Of a stretch of 64,000 nt of DNA, positions 36,201-55,976 are shown piece after piece. Position 1 is the stretch's first letter; each line of letters begins with the position of its first letter. A program made the translations under genes and the position numbers. The stretch is from Pseudomonas monteilii NBRC 103158 = DSM 14164 (GTDB lineage: Bacteria > Pseudomonadota > Gammaproteobacteria > Pseudomonadales > Pseudomonadaceae). Under the pieces are notes generated by a model. The model saw nothing but the letters and a program-made list of their open reading frames with translations. It was not told the origin of the DNA and did not search any database. The DNA lies in the NCBI RefSeq assembly GCF_000730605.1, contig NZ_BBIS01000009.1, forward strand, positions 248,001 through 312,000, written 5' to 3'.

Positions 36201-36253
36201 GCATTTGCTGGCCACGGCCGCAATAATCCGCCTATTTAGAAGGAGAATCTCGG

Positions 36254-37977: not shown

Positions 37978-38081
37978 GTCAGTAGCCCGAGCCGCTCGAA
38001 CCGCCCATGCTGGGCAGGCGGGCCTTGTGCTCGCGAAGCAGGGTCACTGCCACGGAGATCGCTTAGGGCTTGGCATATTGA

Positions 38082-38288
38082 TCAACCCACGTCCCCGCGC
38101 TTGTTCATCTGCTCGCACTGAACCTGCGCATCCGTCCTGCTCGGGTAGCTCGGTTTGAGCCGCTCCTTCACCTGGTTATCGTAAATGTCGAACCCTCCAC
38201 AAACGGTAGCGGCGTAATAGCGGCTGCCCATGCGGAACGACTCCTTTTCGATCGGCACAGCGGGAACGATAACGAATCTTGGTTGCAT
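38082..38288 (-). CDS. Small conserved-looking protein, function unknown
   Basis: A 68-residue soluble protein (MQPRFVIVPAVPIEKESFRM...) with two cysteines (ATVCGGF and VQCEQM) and an acidic-basic C-terminus. The ATG at 38288 has GGGGAGG eight bases upstream, a strong sign of translation. It is divergent from the quinone oxidoreductase promoter region. I do not recognise it. Confidence 0.65.
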   Translation of the reverse strand: MQPRFVIVPAVPIEKESFRMGSRYYAATVCGGFDIYDNQVKERLKPSYPSRTDAQVQCEQMNKRGDVG

Positions 38289-38397: not shown

Positions 38398-38461
38398 TGT
38401 CATCAAATGAAAACCCGCTGTCGTCCGATGCGAAGCATCCCGAAAGCCAAGGGCATACAGT
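38398..38461 (+). promoter_or_regulatory. AraC-type operator and promoter of the qor-tauD-BKACE block
   Basis: Two direct 18-bp half-sites, TGTCATCAAATGAAAACC (38398-38415) and TGTCGTCCGATGCGAAGC (38419-38436), are spaced 21 bp start to start. They are followed 19 bases later by TACAGT (38456-38461) as a -10 element. The second half-site overlaps the -35 region, the usual position for AraC/XylS activators. The same arrangement occurs at 44950-45013. Confidence 0.75.
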
Positions 38462-38515: not shown

Positions 38516-39496
38516 ATGTCCAAAGTCGTACGTTTCCATCAGACCGGTGGCCCCGAAGTGCTGCGCTACGAGGATGCCGAGGTGGGCGAGCCCGGCCCAG
38601 GCCAGGTGCGTTTGCGCCAGGTGGCGGTGGGCCTGAACTACGCCGACACCTACTTCCGCAATGGCACCTACCCGATTCCGTTGCCCAATGGCATCGGCGT
38701 GGAAGCTGCCGGGGTGGTAGAGGCCGTGGGCGAGGGCGTGACGCAGGTGAGGGTCGGTGACCGTGTCACCTATACCGGCTTCCTCAATACCCTGGGTGCT
38801 TATTGTACCGAGCGACTCATACCCGCCGCGGCACTGATAAAACTGCCGGAAACCATTGCCTTCGAGACCGCTGCCGCCATGACCATGCGCGGCCTGACCT
38901 CGGCCTACTTGCTACGCCGGCTCTATGACTTCAAGCCCGGTGACAGCGTGCTGCTGCATGCCGCTGCTGGCGGGGTGGGCCTGATTGTCGCGCAGTGGGC
39001 GAGGTTGTTGGGGCTGAACGTGATCGGCACCGTATCCACCGAGGCCAAGGCTGAAGTGGCCCGCGCCCATGGCTGTAACCACATCATCAACTACAGCGTC
39101 GAGGACGTGGCCAGCCGCGTGCGTGAGCTGACCGACGGGGTAGGGGTGAACGTGGTGTTTGACAGCGTTGGCAAGAACACCTTCATGGGCTCGCTCGATG
39201 CGCTCAAACGCCGTGGCCTGATGGTATGCGTTGGCACGGCTTCGGGCACCATCCCGCCATTCGACCCGCAATTGCTGGCGATCAAGGGTTCGCTGCAGCT
39301 CACCCGCCCGGCACTGGCCGACTTCATTGCCGACCCGGCAGAAAAGGCCGACCTGGCCGGTGAACTGTTCGACCACGTCAGCAGCGGGCGCATCCGGATC
39401 GAAATCAACCAGCACTACGCTTTGCAGGATGCCGCTCAGGCCCACCGTGACCTGGAAGCTCGCAAAACCACCGGCTCGTCGATCTTCGTCATCTGA
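38516..39496 (+). CDS. Zinc-independent quinone oxidoreductase (NADPH:quinone reductase, MDR superfamily)
   Basis: Medium-chain dehydrogenase/reductase of the QOR branch, transferring hydride from NADPH to quinones or enoyl-type substrates. It has 326 residues, with the QOR N-terminus VVRFHQTGGPEVLRYEDAEVGEPGPGQV and cofactor loop LLHAAAGGVGLIVAQWARLLG (about 144-164). It lacks the zinc-binding cysteine cluster. First gene of an apparent operon with the TauD-like and BKACE genes (gaps 13 and 54 bases). Its promoter carries the direct repeats shared with the 45037 gene. In this setting it may reduce an unsaturated intermediate rather than a quinone. Confidence 0.9.
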   Translation: MSKVVRFHQTGGPEVLRYEDAEVGEPGPGQVRLRQVAVGLNYADTYFRNGTYPIPLPNGIGVEAAGVVEAVGEGVTQVRVGDRVTYTGFLNTLGAYCTERLIPAAALIKLPETIAFETAAAMTMRGLTSAYLLRRLYDFKPGDSVLLHAAAGGVGLIVAQWARLLGLNVIGTVSTEAKAEVARAHGCNHIINYSVEDVASRVRELTDGVGVNVVFDSVGKNTFMGSLDALKRRGLMVCVGTASGTIPPFDPQLLAIKGSLQLTRPALADFIADPAEKADLAGELFDHVSSGRIRIEINQHYALQDAAQAHRDLEARKTTGSSIFVI

Positions 39497-39509
39497 AGAG
39501 GGCAACAGC

Positions 39510-40358
39510 ATGCACATCGAACAACTGACCTGCGCGATCGGTGCTGAGGTAAGTGGCGTCAACCTGGCCGACGCGATTCACGATGATGACCTGTTCGCCC
39601 AACTGCGCCAGCAGCTGCTTCAACACCGTGTGCTGTTCATGCGCGACCAGCACTTCAGCCGTGCCGAGCATGTGGCCTTCGCCCGTCGCTTCGGCGAATT
39701 GGAAGATCACCCGGTGGCCGGTAGCGATCCTGAGCACCCAGGGCTGGTGCAGATCTACAAGCGCCCGGACCAGCCCAACGACCGTTATGAAAATGCCTGG
39801 CACACCGACGCCACCTGGCGCGAGGCGCCCCCCATGGGCTGCGTACTGCGCTGCGTCGAGTGCCCCCCGGTGGGCGGCGATACGATGTGGGCGAACATGG
39901 TGCTGGCTTATGAAAACCTGCCCAGCGACGTAAAAGCCAAGATCGAAGGCCTGCGCGCCCGCCACAGCATCGAGGCCAGTTTCGGCGCCGCCATGCCGCT
40001 GGACAAACGCCTGGCGCTGAAGGCGCAGTTCCCCGATGCCGAGCACCCGGTGGTGCGCACCCACCCGGAAACGGGCGAGCAGGTGTTGTTCGTCAACGCC
40101 TTCACCACCCATTTCAGCAACTACCACACCCCGCAGCGGGTGCGTTTCGGCCAGGACGCCAACCCAGGTGCCAGCGACCTGCTGCGTTACCTGATCAGCC
40201 AGGCGTACCTGCCCGAGTACCAGGTGCGCTGGCGCTGGAAGCCTAACAGCGTGGCGATCTGGGACAACCGCAGCACTCAGCATTACGCCGTCATGGACTA
40301 CCCGCCGTGCCACCGCAAGATGGAGCGCGCCGGGATCAAGGGCAGCCGCACGTTCTAA
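39510..40358 (+). CDS. TauD/TfdA-family 2-oxoglutarate-dependent dioxygenase
   Basis: Non-haem Fe(II)/2-oxoglutarate oxygenase. The iron ligands are visible as H98 and D100 in WHTDATW and H258 in STQHYA; R254 or a later arginine would hold 2-oxoglutarate. Length of 282 residues and the start IEQLTCAIGAEVSGVNLADAI match TfdA, TauD and related enzymes that hydroxylate next to sulfonate, ether or carboxylate groups. The ATG at 39510 follows GAAGAGGG. Located between the reductase and BKACE genes, it may hydroxylate the substrate so that a later oxidation gives the beta-keto acid. The actual substrate is unknown. Confidence 0.92.
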   Translation: MHIEQLTCAIGAEVSGVNLADAIHDDDLFAQLRQQLLQHRVLFMRDQHFSRAEHVAFARRFGELEDHPVAGSDPEHPGLVQIYKRPDQPNDRYENAWHTDATWREAPPMGCVLRCVECPPVGGDTMWANMVLAYENLPSDVKAKIEGLRARHSIEASFGAAMPLDKRLALKAQFPDAEHPVVRTHPETGEQVLFVNAFTTHFSNYHTPQRVRFGQDANPGASDLLRYLISQAYLPEYQVRWRWKPNSVAIWDNRSTQHYAVMDYPPCHRKMERAGIKGSRTF

Positions 40359-40412
40359 GCCTGTCGCCGTCACTGGCGGCAACCGCACAATAACAATAGC
40401 GAGGACTACAGC

Positions 40413-41465
40413 ATGCAATTCTTCGACGATTCGTTGCACCCGGAAAACATGGAAAAGGTGGTGATCACCGTGGCCCCCTATGGCCCGGAGTGGATGCCCG
40501 AAGACTTCCCTGAAGACATTCCACTGACCATGGACGAGCAGGTGCAGAAGGCCGTCGACTGTTACGAGGCAGGCGCCACCGTGCTGCACTTGCATGTGCG
40601 TGAACTGGACGGCAAAGGCTCCAAGCGCTTGTCCAAGTTCAACGAGCTGATCGCCGGTGTGCGTGAGGCGGTTCCGGACATGATCATCCAGGTGGGGGGG
40701 TCTATTTCCTTCGCGCCGGAGGGCGAAGGCGAGGCGGCCAAGTGGCTGTCGGACGATACCCGACACATGCTCGCCGAACTGACGCCGCGCCCCGACCAGG
40801 TCACCGTGGCGATCAACACCACGCAGATGAACATCATGGAGCTGTTGTACCCCGAGTACCTCGAAGGCACCTCGCTGGCCAGCCCCGCAATCCATGCAGC
40901 TTACAGCGAGATGACCGTGCCGGCTGGCCCGGCCTGGGTCCGCGAACACCTGCGCCGCCTGCAGGCCAGCAATATCCAGCCGCATTTCCAGCTGACTGGC
41001 ATGCATGCCCTGGAAACCCTTGAGCGCATTGTGCGCCGGGGTGACTACATGGGCCCGCTGAACCTGACCTGGATCGGCATTGGCGGCGGTTTCGACGGCC
41101 CCAACCCGTTCAACTTCTTCAATTTCATCCACCGCGCACCGGACGGCTGCACGTTGACCGCCGAGTCGTTGCTGAAGAACGTGCTGCCGTTCAACACCAT
41201 GGCCTTGGCCATGGGCCTGCACCCGCGCTGTGGCAACGAAGACACCATCATCGACCAGCACGGCAAACGCTTCACCTCGGTGCAGCAGGTCCGGCAGACC
41301 GTGCGCGTGGCGCATGAACTGGGTCGCGAGATTGCCACTGGCAAAGAGGCCCGCGCCATTTACCGCATCGGCCAGCAGTACGACAGCATCGAGCAGACCC
41401 TGAAGGCCAACGGCATGGCGCCAAACCGCCTGTCGGGTGTGAAGGGGGTGCCGCAGCGTACCTGA
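40413..41465 (+). CDS. BKACE (3-keto-5-aminohexanoate cleavage-type) enzyme
   Basis: Zinc-dependent enzyme of the beta-keto acid cleavage family (DUF849): a beta-keto acid plus acetyl-CoA gives acetoacetate plus a new acyl-CoA. Zinc ligands H59 and H61 are in LHLHVRE; GGGFDGPNPFN and GLHPRCGNEDT correspond to later active-site blocks. At 350 residues it is longer than Kce (about 275), with extra N-terminal sequence. The family's specificity varies widely (amino, hydrophobic and dehydrocarnitine acids are known). Here it is the best clue that this block degrades a compound through a beta-keto acid. Confidence 0.9.
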   Translation: MQFFDDSLHPENMEKVVITVAPYGPEWMPEDFPEDIPLTMDEQVQKAVDCYEAGATVLHLHVRELDGKGSKRLSKFNELIAGVREAVPDMIIQVGGSISFAPEGEGEAAKWLSDDTRHMLAELTPRPDQVTVAINTTQMNIMELLYPEYLEGTSLASPAIHAAYSEMTVPAGPAWVREHLRRLQASNIQPHFQLTGMHALETLERIVRRGDYMGPLNLTWIGIGGGFDGPNPFNFFNFIHRAPDGCTLTAESLLKNVLPFNTMALAMGLHPRCGNEDTIIDQHGKRFTSVQQVRQTVRVAHELGREIATGKEARAIYRIGQQYDSIEQTLKANGMAPNRLSGVKGVPQRT

Positions 41466-41482
41466 AAGGCAGGCCCGACCCT

Positions 41483-41502
41483 TTCGCGGGCTTGCCCGCG
41501 AA
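41483..41502. repeat. REP palindrome inside the AraC-controlled block
   Basis: Perfect 9-base arms TTCGCGGGC / GCCCGCGAA with a TT loop lie in the 120-base gap between the BKACE and MFS genes. It could attenuate or stabilise the long transcript. Confidence 0.7.
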
Positions 41503-41585
41503 GCGGCCCGCAAGAGCAACATCAGTTCTGGCTGTTACCCATAACAACAAAAACAACACCCAAGCCCTACACCCAAGGAGGCAAC

Positions 41586-42866
41586 ATGGCCACCTACCTC
41601 GCCAGCGCCGAAGACTCCGGTAGCGAATCCGCCCACAGCGTGCCCCGGCGTTATGCCTGGGTGGTCTTTGCCCTGACCTTTGGTCTGTTGATCTCCGACT
41701 ACATGTCGCGCCAGGTACTCAACGCGGTGTTCCCGCTGCTCAAGGGCGAATGGGCGCTCAGTGACAGCCAATTGGGCCTGCTCAGCGGGATCGTCGCGCT
41801 GATGGTCGGCTTGCTGACGTTCCCGCTGTCACTGTTGGCCGACCGTTTCGGCCGGGTACGCAGCCTGGTGTTGATGGCGGTACTGTGGAGCCTGGCGACG
41901 CTCGGCTGCGCCTTGGCAGAAAATTACCCGCAAATGTTCATTGCGCGTTTTCTGGTCGGGGTCGGAGAGGCCGCTTACGGCAGTGTCGGCATTGCCGTGG
42001 TGGTCGCCGTGTTCCCCCGCGACATGCGCTCGACCCTGGCCGGGGCGTTCATGGCCGGTGGCATGTTCGGCTCGGTGCTGGGCATGGCCCTGGGCGGCGT
42101 GTTGGCTCAGCACCTGGGGTGGCGCTGGGCATTCGCCGGTATGGCACTGTTCGGCCTGATGCTGGCGATGCTGTACCCCATGATCGTCAAGGAGGCACGC
42201 ATTGCGCCCAAGTGCGCGCAGCAGGCGCTGGGCAAGGTCAGCCGCCCGCTGCGCAGCTTGTACAGCAGCCGCTCGGTCATCGCCGCCTATATCGGCAGCG
42301 GCCTGCAGCTGTTTGTTGGCGGCACCTTGATTGTGTGGATGCCTAGCTACCTGAACCGCTATTACGCCATGGGCACTGACCGCGCCGGTGCGGTCGCCGC
42401 TGTCATCGTGTTGTGCAGCGGCGTCGGCATGATCGTCTGCGCCATGCTCTGCGACCGCCTGGGCCGGCAGCGCCCGGACCGCAAGATCAGCCTGGCCATC
42501 GGTTACTGCCTGGGCAGCTGCGTGCTGCTGAGCATGGCCTTCGCGTTGCCCGCTGGCACCGCACAACTGGTGCTGATCTGCCTGGGCATGATGATTGCCG
42601 CCGGCACCAACGGCCCGTCCAGTGCCATGGTTGCCAACCTTACCCACGCCTCGGTACATGGCACCGCTTTCGCCACCCTGACCCTGGCCAACAACCTGCT
42701 GGGCCTGGCGACCGGGCCGCTGATTACTGGCCGGGTATCCGACCTGATCGGCCTGCAGGCCGCATTACAGCTGGTACCGCTGACAAGCATCGCGGCGGCG
42801 GCTGTGTTCTTTTTCGCTAAACGTCATTACCACCGCGACATGGACTGTCTGCGCTCCAGGAGTTGA
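41586..42866 (+). CDS. MFS permease (aromatic/hexuronate acid:H+ symporter-like)
   Basis: Inner-membrane permease of 426 residues with 12 predicted helices. The N-terminal part carries the MFS signature LADRFGRVRSLVLMAVLWSLATLGCALAENYPQMFIARFLVGVGEA, with the corresponding CDRLGRQRPDRK in the second half. The pattern fits the anion:cation symporter-type sub-family that takes up organic acids. The ATG has AAGGAGG seven bases upstream. It is followed 4 bases later by the FrnE-like gene. As the only permease in the block, it probably imports the substrate acid. Confidence 0.88.
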   Translation: MATYLASAEDSGSESAHSVPRRYAWVVFALTFGLLISDYMSRQVLNAVFPLLKGEWALSDSQLGLLSGIVALMVGLLTFPLSLLADRFGRVRSLVLMAVLWSLATLGCALAENYPQMFIARFLVGVGEAAYGSVGIAVVVAVFPRDMRSTLAGAFMAGGMFGSVLGMALGGVLAQHLGWRWAFAGMALFGLMLAMLYPMIVKEARIAPKCAQQALGKVSRPLRSLYSSRSVIAAYIGSGLQLFVGGTLIVWMPSYLNRYYAMGTDRAGAVAAVIVLCSGVGMIVCAMLCDRLGRQRPDRKISLAIGYCLGSCVLLSMAFALPAGTAQLVLICLGMMIAAGTNGPSSAMVANLTHASVHGTAFATLTLANNLLGLATGPLITGRVSDLIGLQAALQLVPLTSIAAAAVFFFAKRHYHRDMDCLRSRS

Positions 42867-42870
42867 AACC

Positions 42871-43524
42871 GTGAAACAGCTGTTGTCCGTCGAGGTGTTC
42901 TTCGATTTTGTCTGCCCTTGGTGCCTGATTGGGCAGCGGCACCTGCAGGCGGCCCTTTTGTGGTTGCAACGTGAGCAACCTCAGGTAGAGGTGCAGGTGC
43001 ACTGGCAGGGCGTGCAGTTGTTGCCTGGGCTGCCTGCCAACGGGGTGTCGTTCAGTACGTTTTACCTGCAACGCCTGGGCAGTGAACAAGCCGTACGCGA
43101 GCGCCAGGCCCAGGTGCGCGCCGCTGCCAGCGTGGTGGGCGAGGATATCGATTTCTCGCGCATACGCCGCATGCCCAATACCGGCAATGCTCACCGGTTG
43201 ATGCAACGGGCCGGCAGCCTGCTCGGTGCACCGCAACAGGAGGCGTTGCTGGCGCAGTTGTTCATTGCCTATTTCCATCAGGGCCGTGACCTGGGAGACA
43301 GCGGCACCTTGCTCGGTATTGCCCAGAGCTGCGGGCTGCAGGCCGCACAAGTGGTCGACTGCCTGCGTGACGACGGTAGCCCGTTTCTCGATGGGGCAGG
43401 GCGCGCAGGCAGTGCCGTGCCGCGCTACCGCTTCAATCAGGGGCCGTTGATTGCAGGCGTGCGGCCGGCCGAGGCGCTGTTTGCGGCCATGAACGACGCC
43501 TTGCAGGAGGTGGTGCAGGCATGA
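42871..43524 (+). CDS. FrnE-like DsbA-family protein (HCCA isomerase/kappa-GST fold)
   Basis: Thioredoxin-fold protein with DsbA-type helical insertion. It has 217 residues with a CPWC motif in FFDFVCPWCLIGQRHL (C16-C19) like FrnE and polyketide oxidoreductases. Other blocks are VQLLPGLPANGVSF, RIRRMPNTGNAHRLMQRA and HQGRDLGDSGTLLGIA. It lacks a signal peptide, so it is cytosolic and more like 2-hydroxychromene-2-carboxylate isomerase relatives in use. The start is a GTG at 42871, nine bases after CAGGAG. Its stop overlaps the ferredoxin start (ATGA), so the two are co-translated. Confidence 0.87.
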   Translation: MKQLLSVEVFFDFVCPWCLIGQRHLQAALLWLQREQPQVEVQVHWQGVQLLPGLPANGVSFSTFYLQRLGSEQAVRERQAQVRAAASVVGEDIDFSRIRRMPNTGNAHRLMQRAGSLLGAPQQEALLAQLFIAYFHQGRDLGDSGTLLGIAQSCGLQAAQVVDCLRDDGSPFLDGAGRAGSAVPRYRFNQGPLIAGVRPAEALFAAMNDALQEVVQA

Positions 43525-43847
43525 AACGACGTATGGCACTGGCCCCCGATCAAGTACCCGAACGCAACGGGCGGGTGCTGTTGGACCTTGAAGGCCACAG
43601 TGTGGCCTTGTTCAACATTGCCGATTCGTTCTATGCCGTCGATGACAGTTGCCCGCACCAGGGGGCATCGCTGTGCGGTGGTCGCCTGGAGGGTCGCGTC
43701 ATCCAGTGCTGTGCCCACGGGTTGCGTTTCGACCTGGCCAGCGGTTATCTGCAGAACTCCACCGCGCTCAAGCTGAACACGTACCCTGTCGAGCACGAGA
43801 AGGGTGAGGTGTTTATCGTCATCGATGAGCCCGCAACGGGCGGTTAA
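43521..43847 (+). CDS. Rieske-type [2Fe-2S] ferredoxin
   Basis: A 108-residue stand-alone Rieske ferredoxin. The cluster ligands are C44, H46 (CPH) and C63, H66 (CCAH), with 16 residues between the two pairs, as the CxH-X(15-17)-CxxH rule requires. Such proteins pass electrons to ring-hydroxylating or other oxygenases, or act in nitrite-reductase-like small subunits. No oxygenase alpha subunit lies in the window, so its partner is unclear; the TauD-like enzyme would not need it. It is the last gene of the first block, with its stop codon sharing the TTAA palindrome with the convergent AraC gene. Confidence 0.9.
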   Translation: MKRRMALAPDQVPERNGRVLLDLEGHSVALFNIADSFYAVDDSCPHQGASLCGGRLEGRVIQCCAHGLRFDLASGYLQNSTALKLNTYPVEHEKGEVFIVIDEPATGG

Positions 43848-44854
43848 TGCAACTGCCCATTGTGCTGTGCGCGCCAGTTTGCCGGCGGCATGCCGTACTG
43901 GGCAATGAACCAGCGGGTGAATGAGCTGGGCATCGAATAACCGAGCATGTCGGCAATGCGCCCCAGCGAATAGCTGGGGTTTTCCAGGTAGCGCATCACC
44001 AGGTCACGGCGCACGCTGTTGATCAGGTCCTTGAAGGTCAGCGCGTTCTCTTCCAGCCGCCGCTGCAGGGTGCGCACGTTCATGCCTTGGGTCTGCGCCA
44101 CTTGCTCGATGGTGGCACGGCCCATGGGTAGCAGCAGGTAGATGGTCTTGCGTAGCTCCAGTTCCAGCGACGGCACGCCGCTGGCCGGCAGCGTGTCCAG
44201 GTAGCGCCGCGCCAGCCGGGCCATGGCCTCGTTGGCCTGCGGGCTGGCGCTGTCGAGGTCGGCGGCGGGGCAGACGATGCCATTGAATTCGCTACCGAAC
44301 ACCAGTGTGCAACCGAAAATGCGCCGGTGAATGGCGGGGTCGGCAGGGGCCGCGTGGGTGAAGTTGGCACTGATCGGGTGCCAATGGGCACCCAGCAGTG
44401 CCGCGCACAGGCGCATCATCACGCCGATGGCCAACTCGGTGGCCTGGCGGCTGCACGGCGCTCGCTCGTTGATCACCTCCTCACGAATAACCACGGTCTT
44501 GCCGGCTTCCTCGATATGGATGGCCAGCGCGTCGTTGAGCAGGTGGCGGTACTGCACGATCACTTGCAGCGCATCGCGCAGGTTGCGTTGGTGGCTGAGC
44601 AGCAGGCTGATTTCGCCGAAGTCCGACAACTGACGCAATTCGGCCATGCGCAAACCGAAACTTTCGCACTTCGTGGCGCTGGCAGAGGCCTCCAGCAAGC
44701 TGATGACGCTGGCCACCGGGATACGCCGGTTGGGGTCGTCGAGCAGCGCGGCGCTCAGGCCAACCTGTGCCAGCAGTGCATGGGGATTGAGGCCCAGGTG
44801 GCGGGACACTTCCAGGTAGTTGGTCAAACTGGCGGCACGGACTAGAGCAGGCAT
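43844..44854 (-). CDS. AraC-family transcriptional regulator (arabinose-binding-like N-domain)
   Basis: A 336-residue activator. The N-terminal 200 residues are of the AraC_E/Arabinose_bd type (ASLTNYLEVSRHLGLNPHALLAQVGLSAALLDDPNRRIPV). The C-terminal AraC DNA-binding domain has two helix-turn-helix units (ATIEQVAQTQGMNVRTLQRRLEENALTFKDLI and YSLGRIADMLGYSMPSSFTRWF). It is divergent from the 45037 hydrolase. Direct repeats in that gap and again before the 38516 gene share a consensus, so this protein most likely activates both blocks in response to the pathway substrate. Its own promoter has one isolated half-site at 44913-44930. Confidence 0.92.
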   Translation of the reverse strand: MPALVRAASLTNYLEVSRHLGLNPHALLAQVGLSAALLDDPNRRIPVASVISLLEASASATKCESFGLRMAELRQLSDFGEISLLLSHQRNLRDALQVIVQYRHLLNDALAIHIEEAGKTVVIREEVINERAPCSRQATELAIGVMMRLCAALLGAHWHPISANFTHAAPADPAIHRRIFGCTLVFGSEFNGIVCPAADLDSASPQANEAMARLARRYLDTLPASGVPSLELELRKTIYLLLPMGRATIEQVAQTQGMNVRTLQRRLEENALTFKDLINSVRRDLVMRYLENPSYSLGRIADMLGYSMPSSFTRWFIAQYGMPPANWRAQHNGQLH

Positions 44855-44912
44855 TTTTTATTGTTGTCCCTGAAGTACGGGGGTTGCAGGTCCACTGGTT
44901 TTATAGCGTGCG

Positions 44913-45013
44913 TGTCATCAATTGAAAAGCAAAGCCCTGTTTTGACCGTTGTCATCAAATGAAAAGCGCCTGACGCCCAATGTAAAGCACCCGGGGGGAG
45001 GCCTGTTTACTGT
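44913..45013 (+). promoter_or_regulatory. AraC-type operator and promoter of the hydrolase-to-acyl-CoA ligase block
   Basis: Three half-sites: TGTCATCAATTGAAAAGC (44913-44930), TGTCATCAAATGAAAAGC (44950-44967) and TGACGCCCAATGTAAAGC (44971-44988). The last two are 21 bp apart, and TACTGT (45008-45013) follows the last by 19 bases, exactly as at 38398-38461. The first site lies on the regulator's side, 37 bp away, and may serve autoregulation. Confidence 0.75.
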
Positions 45014-45036
45014 GACCTTCAAGCGCTACATCGCAC

Positions 45037-45627
45037 ATGAGGTTCACCGTGGAAAAATTGCAAACCACAGCCACCGTGCTGATTGTCCCTGGCCTGCGTG
45101 ACCACGTCGCCGAACATTGGCAAACCCTGCTGGCCGGCCGCCTGGCCAAGGTGCGCAGCGTACCGCCGTTGCAGGTTGACGGCCTGTGTTGCAACGCCCG
45201 GGTCGAGGCGATCCAGCGCGAGCTCGATAAGCTCGAAGGTGAGGTAATCCTGGTCGCGCACAGCGCTGGCGTACTGATGGTCGCCCATTGGGCGGCACGC
45301 TACCGGCGGCCGATCAAGGGGGCTTTGCTGGCGGCCCCGCCAGACCTCAATGCCCACTGGCCGGCGCATTACCCAAGCCCGGCCAGCCTGGCCGAGAAGG
45401 GTTGGTCACCGCTTCCGCCGACGTCGCTGCCATTCCCAAGCATTGTCGCGGCCAGCAGTAACGACCACCTCGCCAGCTACGCCGCCGCCGGTGAACTGGC
45501 CCGGCGTTGGGGCAGCGAACTGGTTGGCCTGGGCGCTGTTGGCCACCTTAACCCGGCTTCCGGTTTCGGCCCTTGGCCGCTAGCCGAGGCCCTGATCCGC
45601 CGACTGGACGGCGCAAACCTGCAGTAA
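45037..45627 (+). CDS. RBBP9/YdeN-family alpha/beta hydrolase
   Basis: Small serine hydrolase of 196 residues. The catalytic triad is readable: S76 in AHSAG, D143 in SSNDHL and H170 in GHLN; VLIVPGLRDHVAEHWQTLL gives the oxyanion region and the family's start. RBBP9-type proteins are esterases or aminopeptidases of uncertain role. It is the first gene after the shared AraC-type operator, 74 bases before the DUF1302 gene, and may release the free acid from an ester that is then transported and activated by the later genes. Confidence 0.85.
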   Translation: MRFTVEKLQTTATVLIVPGLRDHVAEHWQTLLAGRLAKVRSVPPLQVDGLCCNARVEAIQRELDKLEGEVILVAHSAGVLMVAHWAARYRRPIKGALLAAPPDLNAHWPAHYPSPASLAEKGWSPLPPTSLPFPSIVAASSNDHLASYAAAGELARRWGSELVGLGAVGHLNPASGFGPWPLAEALIRRLDGANLQ

Positions 45628-45701
45628 CGCATGGACGCCCCAGCCACGCCCGCAGCAGACGGGCGGCGTAAAAAACAATTACAATACGTGGAGCCATCGT
45701 A

Positions 45702-47657: not shown

Positions 47658-47695
47658 CTCATGTTTCCTACCGCCTACACAGGAAGACAACCATC

Positions 47696-49054: not shown

Positions 49055-49076
49055 GCGCACGGAGCAGAGGTTGCCA

Positions 49077-50072
49077 ATGTCTGTCTTCAAACGATGCAGC
49101 GTAGTGATGCTGGCCCTGGCGGCGCTGCAGGGCACGGCGCAGGCCGTGCCCTTCACCGACGTGCTGGAGGTGCCCGCCATGCCCAGTGCCCTGGCCAGCA
49201 GCAGCGCCCTGCGTGACGTGACCTTGGCCGGGCCGCGCCTGGTCGCGGTCGGCCCGCGCGGGCACATCCTGTATTCCGATGACCACGGCGCACACTGGCA
49301 GCAAGCCCAGGTGCCCGTCAGCGCCGACCTGAATGGGGTGAGCTTTGCTACGCCCGAACTGGGCTGGGCGGTCGGCCACGACGGTGTGGTGCTGCACAGC
49401 CGCGATGGTGGCGTGCACTGGCACAAACAGCTGGATGGCCGCGCGCTGGCCGAGCAGTTGCCTGCGGCGGCCACCGATAATGCCTTGCTCGACGTGTGGT
49501 TCAGCGATGCCCGCAACGGCTATGCGGTGGGGGTGTTCAACCTGTTGTTGCGCACCACCGACGGCGGCGAGCACTGGCAACCCTGGCTCGACCACAGCGA
49601 CAACCCGCAAGGCCTGCACCTGACCAGCCTGGCGGCGGTGGGTGACGACCTGTACATCACCGGCGAGCAGGGCCTGCTGCTGAAGTGGAGCGGCGCACGC
49701 TTCAGCCGCGTCGACACGCCCTATGCCGGCACCCTGTTCGGCGCCGTCGGCAAACCCGGCGTGCTGCTGGTCTACGGCCTGCGCGGCCACGCCTACCGCA
49801 GCACCGATGGCGGCCAGCAGTGGCAGCCGGTGAATACGGGTATCAACACCAGCCTCACCGCCGCCGGCGTCGACCGTAACGGCCAGCTGTGGCTGGCCAG
49901 CCAGGCCGGCGACCTGCTGCTCAGTCGGGATGACGGTGCCAGCTTCAGCCAGGTGCCGCAAAGCGCCCGTGGCCCGGTGACCGCGCTCGTCAGCGACACC
50001 GGCAACGGCCTGGTGCTGGTGGGCGAGCGGGGCGTGCGCAACCAGGCCGGTAACCCCACGCAACACCCATAA
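49077..50072 (+). CDS. YCF48/BNR-repeat beta-propeller protein, exported
   Basis: A 331-residue protein with a signal peptide (1-24). At least five repeats follow with the sialidase/YCF48 pattern (SDDHGAHW, SRDGGVHWHK, TTDGGEHWQPW, STDGGQQWQPV, SRDDGASF), forming a beta-propeller. Members are often linked with DUF1302, DUF1329 and RND genes, as here, and may be a periplasmic accessory of the transporter. The start is placed at the ATG at 49077, which gives the signal peptide; longer frames do not. It is 15 bases before the RND gene. Confidence 0.88.
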   Translation: MSVFKRCSVVMLALAALQGTAQAVPFTDVLEVPAMPSALASSSALRDVTLAGPRLVAVGPRGHILYSDDHGAHWQQAQVPVSADLNGVSFATPELGWAVGHDGVVLHSRDGGVHWHKQLDGRALAEQLPAAATDNALLDVWFSDARNGYAVGVFNLLLRTTDGGEHWQPWLDHSDNPQGLHLTSLAAVGDDLYITGEQGLLLKWSGARFSRVDTPYAGTLFGAVGKPGVLLVYGLRGHAYRSTDGGQQWQPVNTGINTSLTAAGVDRNGQLWLASQAGDLLLSRDDGASFSQVPQSARGPVTALVSDTGNGLVLVGERGVRNQAGNPTQHP

Positions 50073-50087
50073 CAAGAGAAGACCCTG

Positions 50088-52553
50088 ATGGCCGCTACCC
50101 GCCAAGATACCCTTCCGGTAATCCGCAACCTTGCCGACTTCGATCCACATTCGGGCAACGGCCTGGAACGCCTTGTGTTCAACCACCGCCTGCCATTTCT
50201 GCTGTGCATGCTGGTGGCGACGCTGGTGCTGGGCTTCATGGCGCTGACCCGCCTGGAACTGCGCCCCAGCTTCGACAAGATGCTGCCGCAGAGCCACCCC
50301 TACATTCAGCATTACCTGGAAAACCGCGCCTCGTTGCGCGGCCTGGGCAATGCGGTGCGGGTAGTGGTAGAGCACACTCAGGGCGACATTTTCGACCCGG
50401 GCTACCTGCAGACCCTGCGTCACATCAACGACGAGCTGTTCCTCAGCCAGGGGGTGGACCGGGCCTGGGTGAAGTCGCTGTGGAGCCCGGCGGTGCGCTG
50501 GACCGAGGTCACCGAGGAAGGCTTCCAGGGTGGTCCGGTCATGCCTGACGGCTATCAGGGCGCGGCCGGTGACATCGAACAGCTACGGCAGAACATCGAA
50601 CGTGCCAACATCGTCGGCAGTCTGGTGGCGCGCGACTTCAAGTCGAGCATGCTGGTGGTGCCGCTGCTCGACCAGGATTCAGCCACCGGCAAAGGCCTGG
50701 ACTACCATGCCTTTTCGCAAAAGCTCGAACAGCTGCGCAGCCAGTACCAGGCCAGCGGCCAGTACCGTATTCATGTGATTGGCTTCGCCAAGCTGATGGG
50801 CGACCTGATCGACGGCTTGATCGAGGTGATGGCGTTCTTTGCACTGGCGGTGTTGACCAGCCTGGTGATCATCTACTGCTATACCCGCTGTATACGCAGC
50901 ACCTTGCTGGTGGTGCTGTGTTCGCTGACGGCGGTGGTATGGCAACTGGGTATCGTCGCCTGGCTGGGCTATGCCATCGACCCGTATTCGATCCTGGTGC
51001 CCTTCCTGATCTTTGCCATCGGCGTGTCGCATGCGGCGCAGAAGATGAACGGCATCCTTCAGGACATCGGTCGCGGTACCCATCGGCAGATCGCCGCTCG
51101 CTATACCTTCCGTCGCCTGTTCGTGGCCGGGGTGACCGCCTTGCTGGCCGATGCCGTGGGCTTTGCCGTGCTGATGATCATCGATATTCCGGTGATTCAG
51201 GACCTGGCGATTACCGCCAGCATTGGCGTGGCAGTGCTGATCTTTACCTCATTGCTGTTGATGCCGGTGGCCCTGTCCTATGTCGGGGTAGGCCGCAAGG
51301 CCGCCGACCGGGCGCTGCGTATCGATGCCCGCGCGGCTCGGCACCGTGGCTTCGGTCGGCTGTGGGACCTGCTCGACCGCTTCACTGAACGCAAATGGGC
51401 CAGCGCCGCTGTGCTGACAGCCCTTGCCTTGGCCGCCCTGGGCATCTGGGGCAGCTTGCATCTGAAAATCGGCGACCTCGACAGTGGCGCCCCCGAGCTT
51501 CGCGCTGATTCGCGCTACAACCTCGACAATGCCTACATCACCCAGCATTACGCACTGTCCAGCGACACCTTCGCGGTCATGGTCAAGACCGCTCCCGAAG
51601 GCTGCCTGAAGTACCCGACCTTGATTCTTGCCGACCGCCTCGCCTGGGAGCTGCAGCAACTGCCGGGTGTGCAGACCACTGTGTCGCTGGCCAACGCTGT
51701 GCGCCAGATCACCGCGGGTACCTACGAAGGCAACCCACGGCTCAACAGCCTGCAGCGCAACCAGGACGTGCTCAATTACGCCGCCCAGCAGGCTTCGGTC
51801 AACGCCCCGGAGCTGTTCAACAACGACTGCTCGCTGATGCCGGTGATCGCCTACCTCAAAGACCATCGCGCCGATACGCTGGCCGAGGTGGCTGCCGTGG
51901 CCGAACGCTTTGCCCAGGCCAACAGCAGTGCCGAGCACCAGTTCCTGCTGGCCGCCGGCAGCGCCGGTATCGAGGCCGCCACCAACGTGGTGGTACGCGA
52001 GGCCAACCACCGTATGCTGTTGCTGGTGTACCTGGCGGTCACGTTGTTCTGCCTGGTCACCTTCCGCAGCTGGCGCGCAACGCTGGTGGCGATCCTGCCG
52101 CTGATACTCACCTCGGTGCTGTGCGAGGCGCTGATGGTGGCCATGGGGATTGGCGTCAAGGTTGCCACTTTGCCGGTGATCGCCCTTGGCGTGGGCATTG
52201 GCGTGGACTATGCGCTGTACCTGCTTAGCGTGCAGCTGCACTACCAGCGCGCCGGGCTGAGCCTGGCTCAGGCCTACCAGAACGCCGTGGCGTTCACCGG
52301 CCGGGTGGTAGGGCTGGTCGGCATTACCCTGGCTGCCGGTGTGGTTGGCTGGGCCTGGTCGCCCATCAAGTTCCAGGCCGACATGGGCCTGCTGCTGACC
52401 TTCATGTTCCTGTGGAACATGCTCGGCGCGCTGGTGCTGATACCCGCGCTGTCGCACTTCCTCCTGCGTGGTCAGGGCACCCCGGCGGCTGCCGAAACCC
52501 GGGCCGTAGCACTTTCGCAAACCCAAGAAACCGAGTGTTCGCCTCATGTCTGA
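50088..52553 (+). CDS. RND/MMPL-family transporter
   Basis: Large inner-membrane protein of 821 residues with the RND duplicated topology: one helix near 40-60, a periplasmic domain, five or six helices (about 240-400), then a second helix and domain (about 440-640) and a final helical bundle. FAIGVSHAAQKMNG and GVGIGVDYALYLLSV are the intramembrane GxxxD-like motifs of the MMPL/HpnN sub-family. These proteins export lipids or hydrophobic compounds. In this operon it probably moves the substrate or product together with the DUF1302 and DUF1329 proteins. Its 3' end overlaps the next gene by 8 bases. Confidence 0.9.
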   Translation: MAATRQDTLPVIRNLADFDPHSGNGLERLVFNHRLPFLLCMLVATLVLGFMALTRLELRPSFDKMLPQSHPYIQHYLENRASLRGLGNAVRVVVEHTQGDIFDPGYLQTLRHINDELFLSQGVDRAWVKSLWSPAVRWTEVTEEGFQGGPVMPDGYQGAAGDIEQLRQNIERANIVGSLVARDFKSSMLVVPLLDQDSATGKGLDYHAFSQKLEQLRSQYQASGQYRIHVIGFAKLMGDLIDGLIEVMAFFALAVLTSLVIIYCYTRCIRSTLLVVLCSLTAVVWQLGIVAWLGYAIDPYSILVPFLIFAIGVSHAAQKMNGILQDIGRGTHRQIAARYTFRRLFVAGVTALLADAVGFAVLMIIDIPVIQDLAITASIGVAVLIFTSLLLMPVALSYVGVGRKAADRALRIDARAARHRGFGRLWDLLDRFTERKWASAAVLTALALAALGIWGSLHLKIGDLDSGAPELRADSRYNLDNAYITQHYALSSDTFAVMVKTAPEGCLKYPTLILADRLAWELQQLPGVQTTVSLANAVRQITAGTYEGNPRLNSLQRNQDVLNYAAQQASVNAPELFNNDCSLMPVIAYLKDHRADTLAEVAAVAERFAQANSSAEHQFLLAAGSAGIEAATNVVVREANHRMLLLVYLAVTLFCLVTFRSWRATLVAILPLILTSVLCEALMVAMGIGVKVATLPVIALGVGIGVDYALYLLSVQLHYQRAGLSLAQAYQNAVAFTGRVVGLVGITLAAGVVGWAWSPIKFQADMGLLLTFMFLWNMLGALVLIPALSHFLLRGQGTPAAAETRAVALSQTQETECSPHV

Positions 52554-54324
52554 TTACCTTCCGCCACTGCGCGACATGGATTTTCTGTTCAACGACGTGT
52601 TCGACATCCCCGCCTGGTGGGCGCAAACGCCCGCATTGGCCGACGTGGTCGATGGCGACACTGCCCGGGCCATATTCGAGCAGGCCGGCAAACTGATTGC
52701 CGAGCAGGTGGCGCCGCTCAACCGCAGTGGCGACGAGCAGGGATGCCGTTGGGAGGCTGGCCTGGTTCGGACGCCCGACGGTTTCGCCGATGCCTACCGG
52801 GCATTCGCCGCTGACGGCTGGGTCGGGGTGGCCGGTGCACCAGAATATGGCGGCATGGGCATGCCGAAAGTGATCGGCGCCCAGCTCGAAGAAATGCTCA
52901 ATGCTGCCAACCTGTCATTCGGCCTGTACCCAATGTTGACGGCCGGCGCCTGCCTGGCACTGCTGAACCATGCCAGCGAGGCGTTGAAGGCGCTGTACCT
53001 GCCGCCGATGTACCAAGGGCGTTGGAGCGGATCGATGTGCCTGACCGAGCCCCACGCCGGTACCGACCTGGGCCTGATCCGCACCCGCGCCGAGCCCGTT
53101 GCTGATGGCGGCTACCGCATCAGCGGCACGAAGATTTTCATCACCGGCGGCGAGCAGGACCTGACCGAGAACATCATCCATCTGGTGCTGGCGAGGCTGC
53201 CGGATGCCCCTGCTGGCCCCAAAGGTATCTCGCTGTTCCTGGTACCCAAAGTGCTGGTTGGCGCCGACGGCACATTGGGCCAGGCCAATGCGGTGGGCTG
53301 CGGCTCGATCGAGCACAAGATGGGCATCAAGGCGTCGGCAACCTGCGTGATGAACTTTGACGGTGCCATCGGCTACCTGGTCGGTGAGCCGAACAAGGGG
53401 CTCAATGCGATGTTCACCATGATGAACTACGAGCGCCTCGGCGTGGGTATCCAAGGCCTGGCCTTGGGCGAGCGTTCGTATCAGGGGGCCATCGCCTATG
53501 CTCGCGATCGCCAGCAAGGCCGCGCACCGACGGGGGCTGAAGAGCCGGCGCAGCATGCCGACCCGATTATTGTCCACCCGGACGTACGCCGCATGCTGAT
53601 GACCATGAAAGCGCTGAACGAAGGTGGTCGGGCATTTTCCACCTACGTGGCATTGCAGCTGGACCTGGCCAAATACAGCGGCGACCCGGTTGCGCGCGCG
53701 CAGGCCGATGCCAAGGTGGCGTTGCTCACGCCGGTGGCCAAGGCCTTCCTCACCGACATGGGGCTGGAGGCCACCGTTCACGGCCAGCAGGTGCTGGGTG
53801 GCCACGGCTATATCCGTGAATGGGGCCAGGAGCAGTTGATCCGCGACTGCCGCATTACCCAGATCTACGAAGGCACCAATGGCATTCAGGCCCTCGACCT
53901 GGTGGGGCGCAAACTGTTTGCCGATGGTGGCGAGGCGTACCTTGCTGTGTCCGCTGAACTCACCACCTTTGCCGAGGCGCTGCCGGCCGCATGTGCCGAG
54001 TTCAGCGCACCGTTGCTCGCTGCCGTGCGCAACCTTGACGAACTCAGTGCCTGGCTGCTCGACCGTGCCCAAGGCAACCCGCGCGAGCTTGGCGCGGCGG
54101 CGGTCGAGTACCTGCAGGTGTTTGGCTACACCTTCTACGCCTACCTGTGGGCACGCATGGCCGTGGTGTGCCAGCGCCAAGCGGCATCGGAGCCGTTCCA
54201 CGTGAGCAAGCTCGGTACCGCGCGCTTCTACTTTGCACGCCTGCTGCCGCGCATCCATTCGCTCAGTGCCAGTGTCAGGGCCGGCAGCGACAGCCTGTAC
54301 CTGCTCGAGGCCGGGCAACTGTGA
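52546..54324 (+). CDS. Acyl-CoA dehydrogenase, long (FadE-like, 592 residues)
   Basis: FAD enzyme introducing an alpha-beta double bond into an acyl-CoA. The family motifs are SMCLTEPHAGTDLGLIRTRA (about 164-183), GTKIFITGGEQDL, and the C-terminal ACAD block GLEATVHGQQVLGGHGYIREW, whose QIYEGTNGIQ contains the catalytic glutamate candidate. The extended C-terminus of about 130 residues places it in the 600-residue subgroup that also acts on branched or aryl-alkyl substrates. It starts within the end of the RND gene and its stop overlaps the ligase start (TGATG), indicating tight co-translation. Confidence 0.93.
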   Translation: MSDYLPPLRDMDFLFNDVFDIPAWWAQTPALADVVDGDTARAIFEQAGKLIAEQVAPLNRSGDEQGCRWEAGLVRTPDGFADAYRAFAADGWVGVAGAPEYGGMGMPKVIGAQLEEMLNAANLSFGLYPMLTAGACLALLNHASEALKALYLPPMYQGRWSGSMCLTEPHAGTDLGLIRTRAEPVADGGYRISGTKIFITGGEQDLTENIIHLVLARLPDAPAGPKGISLFLVPKVLVGADGTLGQANAVGCGSIEHKMGIKASATCVMNFDGAIGYLVGEPNKGLNAMFTMMNYERLGVGIQGLALGERSYQGAIAYARDRQQGRAPTGAEEPAQHADPIIVHPDVRRMLMTMKALNEGGRAFSTYVALQLDLAKYSGDPVARAQADAKVALLTPVAKAFLTDMGLEATVHGQQVLGGHGYIREWGQEQLIRDCRITQIYEGTNGIQALDLVGRKLFADGGEAYLAVSAELTTFAEALPAACAEFSAPLLAAVRNLDELSAWLLDRAQGNPRELGAAAVEYLQVFGYTFYAYLWARMAVVCQRQAASEPFHVSKLGTARFYFARLLPRIHSLSASVRAGSDSLYLLEAGQL

Positions 54325-55976
54325 TGGCCGCGAACATGACCTCGACCCGCATCATGCCTGCGGCCGAGCAGGCGTATGCCTACCCGCTGCTGATCAAGCG
54401 CCTGCTGCTGTCGGGCGTGCGCTACCAGCCCAACCAGGAAATCGTGTACGCCGACCAGCTGCGCTACACCTACACGACGTTGCTGGCGCGCATTCAGCGA
54501 CTGGCCAATGCGCTCACCGCCGCCGGGGTGAAACCCGGCGATACCGTGGCCTTGCTCGACTGGGACAGCCATCGCGCACTGGAGTGTTTCTTTGCCGTAC
54601 CGATGCTGGGGGCGGTGCTGCATACGGTAAATGTGCGGCTGTCCACCGAGCAGGTGCGCTATACCATGAACCATGCCGAGGACCGGTGGGTGCTGGTGCA
54701 TGACGACTTCCTGCCGCTGATGCAGCAGCTACAGGCCGACCTGCCGACAGTCGATGGCTTCATCCGCCTCAGCGATGGCGCCCCCGCCGCGCAGGTGGTA
54801 CCTATGCTGGGCGAGTATGAAGCCATGCTGGCGGCTGCCGAGCCCCAGTTCGAATTCCCGGACTTCGACGAGAATTCCCTGGCCACGCTGTTCTATACCA
54901 GCGGTACCACCGGCAACCCCAAAGGCGTTTACTTCAGCCACCGGCAACTGGTGCTGCACACCTTGGTCGAGCAGGGCACCCTGGCCGCGTGCGGCGACGT
55001 ACCGCTGCTGCGAACGGGCGATGTGTACATGCCGATCACGCCCATGTTCCACGTACATGCCTGGGGCGTGCCCTATGTGGCCACCGCGCTGGGTATCAAG
55101 CAGGTCTACCCCGGGCGCTACGAGCCCAATCGCCTGGTGCGCCTTTATCGCGACGAGGGTGTGACCTTCTCCCATTGTGTGCCCACGGTGCTGCAGATGA
55201 TGCTCGACAGCGAGCAAGGGCGCTGCACCGACCTGGCTGGCTGGAAGATGCTGCTGGGCGGCAGCGCGTTGACCTTGGGTCTTGCCCAGCGGGCCAGCGA
55301 GCGGGGCATCAGCGTGCATTGTGGCTATGGCATGTCGGAAAGCTGCCCGCTGCTGAGCATCACCCACCTGAGCGCCGACCTGCTGGCACAACCCATGGCG
55401 CAACAACTGCCTCTGCGCATCGATGCCGGCGTGCCGATTGCTTTGGTGGACCTGCGTATCGTCGACAATGAGGGCAGGGCGGTGCCGCACGATGGCGAAA
55501 GCCTGGGCGAAGTGGTAGTGCGCGCGCCGTGGCTCACCCAGGGCTACCTGCACGAACCGGAGCAAGGCGCGGCGCTGTGGCTGGGGGGCTGGATGCACAC
55601 CGGTGACCTGGCCTGCATCGACGCAGCCGGCGTGGTGCGCATCCGTGACCGGATCAAGGATGTGATCAAGACCGGTGGCGAGTGGGTGAGCTCGGTGGCG
55701 CTGGAAAACCTCATCAGCCAGCACCCGTCCGTCGCCTCGGTGGCGGTCATCGGTATTCCTGACCCACAGTGGGGGGAACAACCGTTGGCGCTGGTGGTCT
55801 GTTGTGACGGTGTGCAACTGGACCAGCCAGCATTGGCCAGGCACCTGCAGCCGTATGTCGACAGCGGGCACCTGAACAAATGGGCGATACCACGGCAGCT
55901 TCGTTGTGTGGACGAGATCCCCAGGACCAGTGTCGGCAAGATCGACAAGAAGCGCATTCGCCAGGCTGAAATCTAG
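54324..55976 (+). CDS. Acyl-CoA ligase (AMP-forming)
   Basis: ANL-superfamily synthetase activating a carboxylic acid to its CoA thioester through an acyl-adenylate. It shows the P-loop-like signature LFYTSGTTGNPKGVYFSH (about 190-207), CGYGMSESCPLLS, WMHTGDLACIDAAGVVRIRDRIKDVIKTGGEWVSS, and the C-terminal lysine region TSVGKIDKKRIRQ. At 550 residues it resembles medium-chain and alkyl-acid CoA ligases. The ATG overlaps the dehydrogenase stop. Last gene of the block; a hairpin follows at once. It supplies the acyl-CoA that the preceding dehydrogenase would oxidise. Confidence 0.93.
   Translation: MAANMTSTRIMPAAEQAYAYPLLIKRLLLSGVRYQPNQEIVYADQLRYTYTTLLARIQRLANALTAAGVKPGDTVALLDWDSHRALECFFAVPMLGAVLHTVNVRLSTEQVRYTMNHAEDRWVLVHDDFLPLMQQLQADLPTVDGFIRLSDGAPAAQVVPMLGEYEAMLAAAEPQFEFPDFDENSLATLFYTSGTTGNPKGVYFSHRQLVLHTLVEQGTLAACGDVPLLRTGDVYMPITPMFHVHAWGVPYVATALGIKQVYPGRYEPNRLVRLYRDEGVTFSHCVPTVLQMMLDSEQGRCTDLAGWKMLLGGSALTLGLAQRASERGISVHCGYGMSESCPLLSITHLSADLLAQPMAQQLPLRIDAGVPIALVDLRIVDNEGRAVPHDGESLGEVVVRAPWLTQGYLHEPEQGAALWLGGWMHTGDLACIDAAGVVRIRDRIKDVIKTGGEWVSSVALENLISQHPSVASVAVIGIPDPQWGEQPLALVVCCDGVQLDQPALARHLQPYVDSGHLNKWAIPRQLRCVDEIPRTSVGKIDKKRIRQAEI

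Follow-up and report, generated by a model that had tools for sequence, protein, structure and literature searches.

A probable AraC-controlled regulon for organic sulfonate catabolism in Pseudomonas monteilii

What compound is consumed by the products of fourteen neighbouring genes of Pseudomonas monteilii NBRC 103158 = DSM 14164? The genes lie in a stretch of 64,000 nucleotides (positions 248,001 to 312,000 of contig NZ_BBIS01000009.1), termed here the window, and all coordinates below are those of the window unless a locus or accession is named. An initial annotation, made from the sequence of the window, had proposed a catabolic regulon for a hydrophobic acid, and profile searches found all the gene families that it named in their places. 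The fourteen genes, termed the module, form two blocks with an AraC-family regulator gene between them, a position absent from the list of the initial annotation. The module is probably a regulon under AraC control for the use of an organic sulfonate as a carbon source; the most likely substrate is a sulfonated fatty acid or an alkyl sulfonate that is converted into one.

Do the two blocks belong together? The evidence is a shared operator word, TGTCATCAAWTGAAAA, which was found by comparing 80 stretches upstream of the first gene of the module, encoding an NADPH:quinone oxidoreductase-like protein (QOR), with 67 gaps between the AraC and hydrolase genes, the window being in both sets. Perfect copies in the window are at 38398, 44913 and 44950. 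The first begins an AraC-type operator before QOR (38398..38436, + strand), which consists of TGTCATCAAATGAAAA, with no mismatches, and a second half-site 21 bp on. The second is a half-site in the AraC-hydrolase intergenic region (44913..44928, + strand, 0 mismatches), and the third is the first half, also without mismatches, of a direct-repeat operator before the hydrolase operon (44950..44988, + strand), whose second half was read from the sequence. At three or fewer mismatches the window contains four matches versus 0.30 expected, a number reached by none of 100 shuffles; the fourth, with three mismatches, is at 61467, outside the module. In the whole genome (6.3 Mb) there are five matches at two or fewer mismatches, of which three are perfect and all in the module, and two are on another contig. 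A reversed control pattern of the word gave no match in the same genome at this threshold.

The QOR-side operator has the consensus TGTCATgAAATGAAAA, five bases, TGTCGtCnGATGaGAAGC (83 sites from relatives), with a direct-repeat spacing of 21 bp. Conservation on the hydrolase side (126 sites) is good in the first half and weak in the second half, which is strong before QOR. Such spacing and layout are typical of an AraC/XylS-type activator that binds direct repeats. The predicted role of the AraC protein rests on position, i.e. the operator between the AraC and hydrolase genes. Since the same operator is at both promoters and is perfect nowhere else in the genome, the blocks appear to be co-regulated, and by this sequence evidence they almost certainly constitute one regulon under one operator and, presumably, this AraC regulator. 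What had been a guess in the initial annotation is thereby supported.

Gene neighbourhoods were compared in 80 named loci that have the beta-keto acid cleavage enzyme (BKACE), the best 80 of 428 relatives. The fetched loci end about 10 kb after BKACE, and later genes are therefore under-counted. QOR was found in 79 of these loci, TauD in 80, the MFS transporter in 79, the DsbA-fold protein in 77, the ferredoxin in 78 and AraC in 71, followed by the hydrolase in 67, DUF1302 in 65 (with a match less than 30% identical in three Acinetobacter loci) and DUF1329 in 55. A length of 8 kb or more beyond BKACE was available in 75 loci; 64 of these have the hydrolase together with DUF1302 or DUF1329, and 11 do not have both, in some cases because the stretch ends. 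The co-conservation of the module is far above chance, and the neighbourhood comparison that the initial annotation had proposed upholds its view that the blocks are conserved together. The same 80 loci (1.58 Mb) contain 183 operator sites at two or fewer mismatches: 78 before QOR, 98 in the AraC-hydrolase gap and seven elsewhere. These seven are before the hydrolase (L059), before the ligase and beside AraC at the locus end (both L061), before a second TauD-BKACE pair (L067, L069 and L090) and 279 bp before DUF1302 (L100). Thus all 183 sites are before or between module genes. In a wider search of 249 genomes, in which the sites were examined in part, operator matches were found in at least 106, and the reversed control pattern in three; many of these GGTCATSAAATGAAAA sites may be unrelated to the module. 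Among 20 further operator regions, L209, L214 and L218 have both half-sites and no target gene assigned on the map, and the L220 site is without the second half.

Relatives of the core genes are found in a number of remote bacterial groups, and within the genus their distribution is patchy. Named loci include Aeromonas, Citrobacter and Acinetobacter, the last with A. nosocomialis (L103), A. seifertii (L110) and A. lactucae (L104). In Citrobacter (L101) the genes run AraC-hydrolase-ligase-QOR-TauD-BKACE-MFS-ferredoxin, and the stretch that was fetched contains no DUF1302 block. Core genes are also on plasmids or megaplasmids of Caballeronia, Cupriavidus, Azoarcus, Diaphorobacter, Novosphingobium, Rhodococcus, Tsukamurella and Streptomyces; in Diaphorobacter and Cupriavidus sp. 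EM10 the BKACE gene is 11-15 kb from TauD. In an even draw of the phylum, 16 of 398 genomes, own included, have a BKACE match at E<=1e-60. Within the genus the count is 12 of 59, own included, with BKACE 88-100% identical in ten and only a form of ~61% in two. A second TauD (~75-79%) and BKACE (~59-63%) pair is found upstream of QOR in L067, L069, L090, L111 and L224. It has its own operator in L067, L069, L090 and L224, and none at two or fewer mismatches in L111. This pair suggests a second related substrate.

What, then, is the chemistry? In 70 of the 80 named loci a YeiH-family gene (PF03601, 'putative sulfate exporter') follows the ferredoxin gene in the same orientation, at a distance of 3-21 bp between aligned ends, and these YeiH proteins are at least 80% identical to the query. 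Genes of the YeiH family confer protection from sulfite (PMC12880088). In the Novosphingobium module a related YeiH gene (62%) comes 3 bp after the MFS gene, and in the Rhodococcus module a distant one (31% identity) overlaps the ligase gene by 4 bp; since one form is related and the other distant, YeiH appears to have been recruited at least twice separately.

A search with TauD alone found an island on a plasmid of a P. aeruginosa river isolate (L232/L228; NZ_CP093017 372000-415653), which has TauD (66% identity), YeiH (88%), acyl-CoA dehydrogenase (71%), DUF1302 (69%), DUF1329 (70%), YCF48 (53%) and MMPL (76%). Within ~40 kb this island also has a soxC sulfite dehydrogenase, a cytochrome c, a sulfurtransferase and SulP, together with two more genes of the TauD family, thiolases, a 3-hydroxybutyryl-CoA dehydrogenase and a gene annotated as 3-(methylthio)propionyl-CoA ligase. 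The AraC proteins encoded there reach only ~26% identity to that of the module. Perhaps the island represents a second form of the pathway, one that has a Cupin_7 dioxygenase and dispenses with BKACE. The YeiH gene beside the ferredoxin gene and the sulfite dehydrogenase in the related island point to sulfite release from a C-S bond, and sulfite-releasing sulfonate catabolism is considered quite likely on this gene context. In relatives the candidate desulfonating enzyme is accompanied by a putative sulfite exporter (YeiH, in 70 of the 80 loci) or oxidiser (the soxC island); no such pairing is seen in the window copy.

Two side observations concern these neighbourhoods. An alpha/beta hydrolase fused to a Cupin_7 domain is encoded at L150:5831-7276, between TauD and TTT-YeiH-BKACE. 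A conserved protein of ~249 amino acids, secreted-looking by eye and with no Pfam match (L224:13228-13977, L232:3115-3678), has its gene next to the module in ten loci and is encoded in the plasmid island too.

The proposed desulfonase is a TauD-family Fe(II)/2-oxoglutarate dioxygenase (39510..40358, + strand; PF02668 222 bits), whose closest solved structure, 5VN6 (551 bits), was deposited as a taurine dioxygenase. A conservation alignment of 116 rows at 58% identity or more shows the iron triad H98, D100 and H258 and the 2-oxoglutarate residue R269 invariant in all 116. The pair H67/R273, which by hand mapping corresponds to H70/R270 of E. coli TauD, is also invariant in every row. In the E. 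coli enzyme H70/R270 contact the sulfonate, and Y73, D94 and N95 contact the taurine amine. Y73 faces A70 here, with A in 96 and V in 16 of the 116 rows; N95 faces R92 and D94 faces D91, where a two-residue insertion (Y93-E94) makes the placement of D94/N95 uncertain, and the Y73 change is clear. Thus, because the iron and 2-oxoglutarate ligands and the His/Arg pair are kept and the tyrosine is replaced, the enzyme is most likely a 2-oxoglutarate dioxygenase for an anionic, non-taurine substrate. It resembles E. coli TauD (1gqw) in family, ligands and the His/Arg pair, but differs in its score under the taurine cut-off, the change of Tyr73 to Ala, the altered D94-N95 stretch and its place in an apparently carbon-catabolic operon. 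Taurine itself was rejected as the substrate on the equivalog cut-off and the replacement of Tyr73.

The BKACE protein has 350 amino acids (40413..41465, + strand; PF05853 202 bits, cut-off 24.8), and its motifs HLHVRE and GNED align with Kce. H59, H61 and E276 (HxH...E), presumably the metal site, are invariant in 125 of 125 aligned rows. Both subunits of a 3-oxoacid CoA-transferase (ScoAB) are encoded beside the module in ten fetched loci (L061, L067, L069, L090, L100, L111, L153, L161, L223 and L224) from some pseudomonads and Aeromonas, a count for which the named and further locus sets may overlap in species. Two Streptomyces have an acetoacetate-CoA ligase gene beside the module. A polyhydroxyalkanoate (PHA) synthase gene comes after the YeiH position in L061, L090, L111, L161 and L224, and in L208, L211 and L212 it is preceded by a perfect TGTCATSAAWTGAAAA operator; the synthase is divergent, as the two that were scored (L224 and L208) fall under the class I and class II cut-offs. 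Chemoreceptor genes are behind operator sites in L210, L216, L219, L224 and L226. The CoA-transferase, ligase, PHA synthase and chemoreceptor neighbours suggest that BKACE makes acetoacetate from a carbon source towards which the cell swims, and production of acetoacetate is supported by the reaction predicted from the family together with these enzymes. In the Rhodococcus module, a fragment at L134:13763-14134 is like a CoA-transferase B subunit (66%); the plasmid gene table, which is incomplete, has no gene there.

The other product may be propionyl-CoA in some cases. In Caballeronia grimmiae (L138:6038-11998) the genes prpB-prpC-acnD-prpF follow the Rieske gene at a distance of 17 bp, and in Aeromonas lusitana they are divergent from QOR, with an operator between prpB and QOR (L100:1418-7505); no prpC match was found in any other scanned locus. 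Methylcitrate-cycle genes beside the module in two unrelated lineages are a hint of propionyl-CoA as an end product, and propionyl-CoA would be expected from 3-oxopentanoate. A BKACE of another subfamily is active on 3-oxopentanoate, according to the available part of PMC6365646. The same part describes the deoxyribonate pathway of Pseudomonas simiae, which also has BKACE and MFS genes and acetoacetate that needs activation; it differs in that a short-chain dehydrogenase/reductase (SDR) makes the keto acid there, whereas TauD is proposed here, and the module BKACE is a distinct 350 amino acid form. It should be pointed out that one DUF849 enzyme, BsfD, catalyses different chemistry (PMC12871164, as seen in an excerpt).

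How might these activities form one pathway? From their families, an AmeABCD-like set and the MFS transporter would carry the substrate across the envelope, and the AMP-forming ligase and the acyl-CoA dehydrogenase would shorten the chain by beta-oxidation. Shortening would stall with the sulfonate on the beta carbon, and the serine hydrolase would free a 3-sulfo acid, R-CH(SO3-)-CH2-COO-. TauD would then hydroxylate the sulfur-bearing carbon, and the adduct would collapse to R-CO-CH2-COO- and sulfite, a release suggested by gene context and a substrate that is presumed. With acetyl-CoA, BKACE would give R-CO-CoA and acetoacetate. R-CO-CoA would enter beta-oxidation, or the methylcitrate cycle where it is or ends as propionyl-CoA; acetoacetate would be activated and used, and in some relatives stored as PHA; and YeiH would guard most relatives against sulfite, presumably by export. 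As profile searches found no SDR and no aldehyde dehydrogenase among the 14 genes, direct formation of the ketone with sulfite leaving the same carbon would be the simplest link from TauD to BKACE. A 3-sulfo acid from stalled beta-oxidation would explain the ligase, dehydrogenase, hydrolase and lipid-type envelope set together. This specific mechanism is offered as a tentative one, somewhat short of an even chance. A more general proposal, of perhaps one chance in three, is that beta-oxidation is blocked by the sulfonate group and that the module is a widespread bypass of this block, in which a thioesterase frees the 3-sulfo acid, TauD converts it to the ketone and BKACE makes the exchange, with no dehydrogenase or aldehyde step. 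In the shortest case 3-sulfopentanoate would yield propionyl-CoA and acetoacetate. If this is true, the bypass would equip bacteria to grow on secondary alkanesulfonate surfactants or sulfonated lipids, and its core genes range from Pseudomonas and the Acinetobacter baumannii complex as far as Rhodococcus and Streptomyces.

A number of observations weigh against a sulfonate pathway of this kind. No direct evidence fixes the carbon skeleton, and the 3-sulfo-acid step is one that we infer. TauD scores 252.6 bits against a cut-off of 313 for the NCBIfam taurine-dioxygenase model NF007104 and is as near PlaO1 (187 bits) as the 1gqw taurine dioxygenase (191 bits); residues of the H70/R270 type could also bind carboxylate or sulfate. 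QOR, the FrnE-like protein and the Rieske ferredoxin have no part in the scheme, although QOR may reduce an unsaturated sulfonate. The argument for sulfite rests on relatives, because the window copy has no YeiH gene beside the ferredoxin gene; the single PF03601 gene of the genome is elsewhere, divergent from an open reading frame that looks LysR-like by eye, as in the housekeeping yeiE-yeiH pair. YeiH is also missing from ten of the 80 named loci, among them the nearest relatives of the window (L033, L034 and L036), and from the stretches examined of the Tsukamurella, Azoarcus and one Streptomyces module. Export by YeiH is unproven even in Salmonella, where the gene is termed poorly characterised (PMC12880088). 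The plasmid island is split by an IS1380 element, with YeiH and the envelope genes on one side and soxC and TauD on the other, and therefore the two parts may have been joined by chance. The island stretches examined have no BKACE or QOR, and the island has no operator copy at three or fewer mismatches. A Cupin_7 protein (2,4'-dihydroxyacetophenone dioxygenase family) adjoins the island TauD, and likewise in Paraburkholderia terrae.

These points raise the question of whether other pathways fit the module. TauD might hydroxylate a sulfur-free carboxylic acid, after which a dehydrogenase, perhaps QOR, would make the beta-keto acid for BKACE, and YeiH would export another anion. The TauD family does have enzymes that act on carboxylates, with phenoxypropionate dioxygenase and PlaO1 scoring near the module TauD, and the substrate classes of MFS and TTT-type transporters, both encoded beside the module, include carboxylates, which they would suit. 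However, there is no SDR or aldehyde dehydrogenase in the module, QOR-type proteins are known as reductases, and there would be no explanation for YeiH genes of two distant subfamilies or for the island with the sulfite dehydrogenase; this pathway is regarded as unlikely. A sulfate ester beta to the carboxylate, attacked as by AtsK, would give the same beta-keto acid, with sulfate as the other product. The alignments of TauD with AtsK and Rv3406 cover nearly its whole length, and H67/R273 would suit sulfate, but a gene family that protects against sulfite (PMC12880088) and the sulfite dehydrogenase of the island would be superfluous, and such an ester is judged improbable.

The homology to TauD also brings up scavenging, with the sulfonate as a source of sulfur only. 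E. coli TauD functions in this way during sulfur starvation. The sulfite-resistance gene, PHA synthase, CoA-transferase, chemoreceptors and dedicated AraC operator of relatives instead fit growth on carbon, which makes scavenging very improbable. Hydroxylation of a gamma-butyrobetaine-like compound followed by BKACE cleavage of dehydrocarnitine would in principle use the same two enzyme families; yet a lipid-type envelope block argues against it, and this carnitine-type route, which has hardly any likelihood, was rejected, as the 14 genes include no carnitine dehydrogenase or betaine-specific gene, and the matches listed for TauD and BKACE include no model for carnitine or betaine. The two blocks could finally be unrelated operons that are neighbours by accident. 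In favour are the 11 of 75 long loci in which the hydrolase and DUF1302/DUF1329 were not both found, although L067 and L086 end soon after the hydrolase and L100 has DUF1302/DUF1329 and no hydrolase match. The Citrobacter and Rhodococcus stretches examined, which have no DUF1302 block, are also in favour. Accident is nevertheless extremely improbable, given the same operator at both promoters with no other perfect site in the genome and the 64 of 75 loci that keep the blocks together.

The second block starts with a small serine hydrolase, a putative thioesterase or esterase (45037..45627; PF06821 136 bits; PDB 3bdv E=5e-20), and like all its genes is on the + strand. An envelope set follows, made up of a DUF1302 outer-membrane barrel (AmeA-like; 45702..47657, 357 bits), a DUF1329 periplasmic LolA-like protein (AmeB-like; 47696..49054, 459 bits), a YCF48/BNR propeller (AmeC-like; 49077..50072, PF14870 88 bits) and an MMPL/RND inner-membrane transporter (AmeD-like; 50088..52553, PF03176 67 bits). 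This is the composition and order of AmeABCD. COG4447 is presumably the YCF48 group. The AmeABCD system for efflux of apolar monoterpenes in Castellaniella defragrans has, in the portion of the report at hand, DUF1302, DUF1329, a COG4447 protein and RND in the same A-B-C-D order (PMC6394551); the likeness is by families and order, and the module block differs in being under an AraC operator with TauD and BKACE. In Pseudomonas putida the DUF1302/DUF1329 pair PP_0765/PP_0766 is needed for use of Tween 20, and is similarly linked to a transporter and to surfactant use; the section available reports no TauD, BKACE or YeiH alongside (PMC10866462). The block ends with an acyl-CoA dehydrogenase of the ~590 amino acid class (52546..54324; PF12806, PF00441) and an AMP-forming acyl-CoA ligase (~54324..55976; PF00501 246 bits; NF004837 648 bits, cut-off 476). 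Use of methylthiopropionate of the DmdB/DmdC type was rejected for the window, where the ligase scores 438 against a model cut-off of 822. The ligase of Caballeronia Sq4a passes the methylthiopropionate-type ligase model (922 versus 822).

The chemistry of the initial annotation can therefore be regarded as half right. Its BKACE reaction with acetyl-CoA agrees with the acetoacetate-activating CoA-transferase of pseudomonads and Aeromonas and the acetoacetate-CoA ligase of two Streptomyces, and its acyl-CoA arm has both a ligase and a dehydrogenase. TauD had been assigned mere hydroxylation on a side branch, and this part is not supported, as release of sulfite is indicated by the YeiH genes of 70 of the 80 loci and by the island with a sulfite dehydrogenase, a link invisible in a sequence-only reading because the window copy has no YeiH gene. 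The envelope set had been considered to be without precedent, whereas AmeABCD and PP_0765/PP_0766 were already described in the parts of the two papers cited above, and the substrates suggested (branched, aromatic, terpenoid and quaternary-ammonium acids) are probably the wrong panels.

CuyZ belongs to the PF03601 family. In CuyZ-linked cysteate desulfonation in Ruegeria, a desulfonation gene likewise adjoins an annotated sulfite exporter, but the enzyme is a lyase and not an oxygenase, and the sulfonate is a polar C3 compound (PMC4334477, in the passages available). No description of the module was found in the open-access literature (open-licence PubMed Central). An AmeABCD-type block, a BKACE-MFS operon and sulfonate catabolism are each known; no paper found in this literature combines them with TauD and a sulfite-resistance gene. 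Organic sulfonates account for much of the organic sulfur in soils and for a large part of household surfactants. To our knowledge, few routes use lipid-like sulfonates as carbon. The conserved regulon, with its defined operator, candidate desulfonase and predicted products, makes a substrate search directly testable, and the module would be the first physiological setting for the solved enzyme 5VN6 and for this form of BKACE. The loci of A. nosocomialis, A. seifertii and A. lactucae, together with those of environmental bacteria, make the substrate ecologically interesting.

The remaining genes are in the first block, on the + strand, and at its end. QOR, an MDR protein (38516..39496), scores 353 bits with NCBIfam NF008024 (cut-off 348) and 288 bits with PDB 1wly, and is also near 2-haloacrylate reductase. 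The MFS transporter, a proposed importer (41586..42866; PF07690 168 bits), has TIGR00893 as its best subfamily, under the cut-off of that model. It is followed by a FrnE-like DsbA-fold thiol oxidoreductase (42871..43524; PF01323; PDB FrnE E=4.8e-12) and the Rieske [2Fe-2S] ferredoxin (43521..43847; PF00355). The AraC-family protein, the proposed activator of the regulon, is encoded on the - strand (43844..44854) and has Arabinose_bd and HTH_18 domains (PF12625, PF12833). The ~3 kb 5' of QOR (34936-38229) contain only open reading frames of less than 200 amino acids, two of which were tested and have no Pfam match, and no tRNA or Rfam match. Three gene starts were re-set (TauD 39510, YCF48 49077 and ligase ~54324). 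The gene maps of relatives are mechanical open reading frames with BLAST labels, in which some starts are overlong and some opposite-strand frames may be shadows. Judged by its nearest loci, the genome of the window belongs to the P. putida group; the closest named locus among the best 80 of 428 relatives is that of P. putida NBRC 14671, with a BKACE 99% identical.

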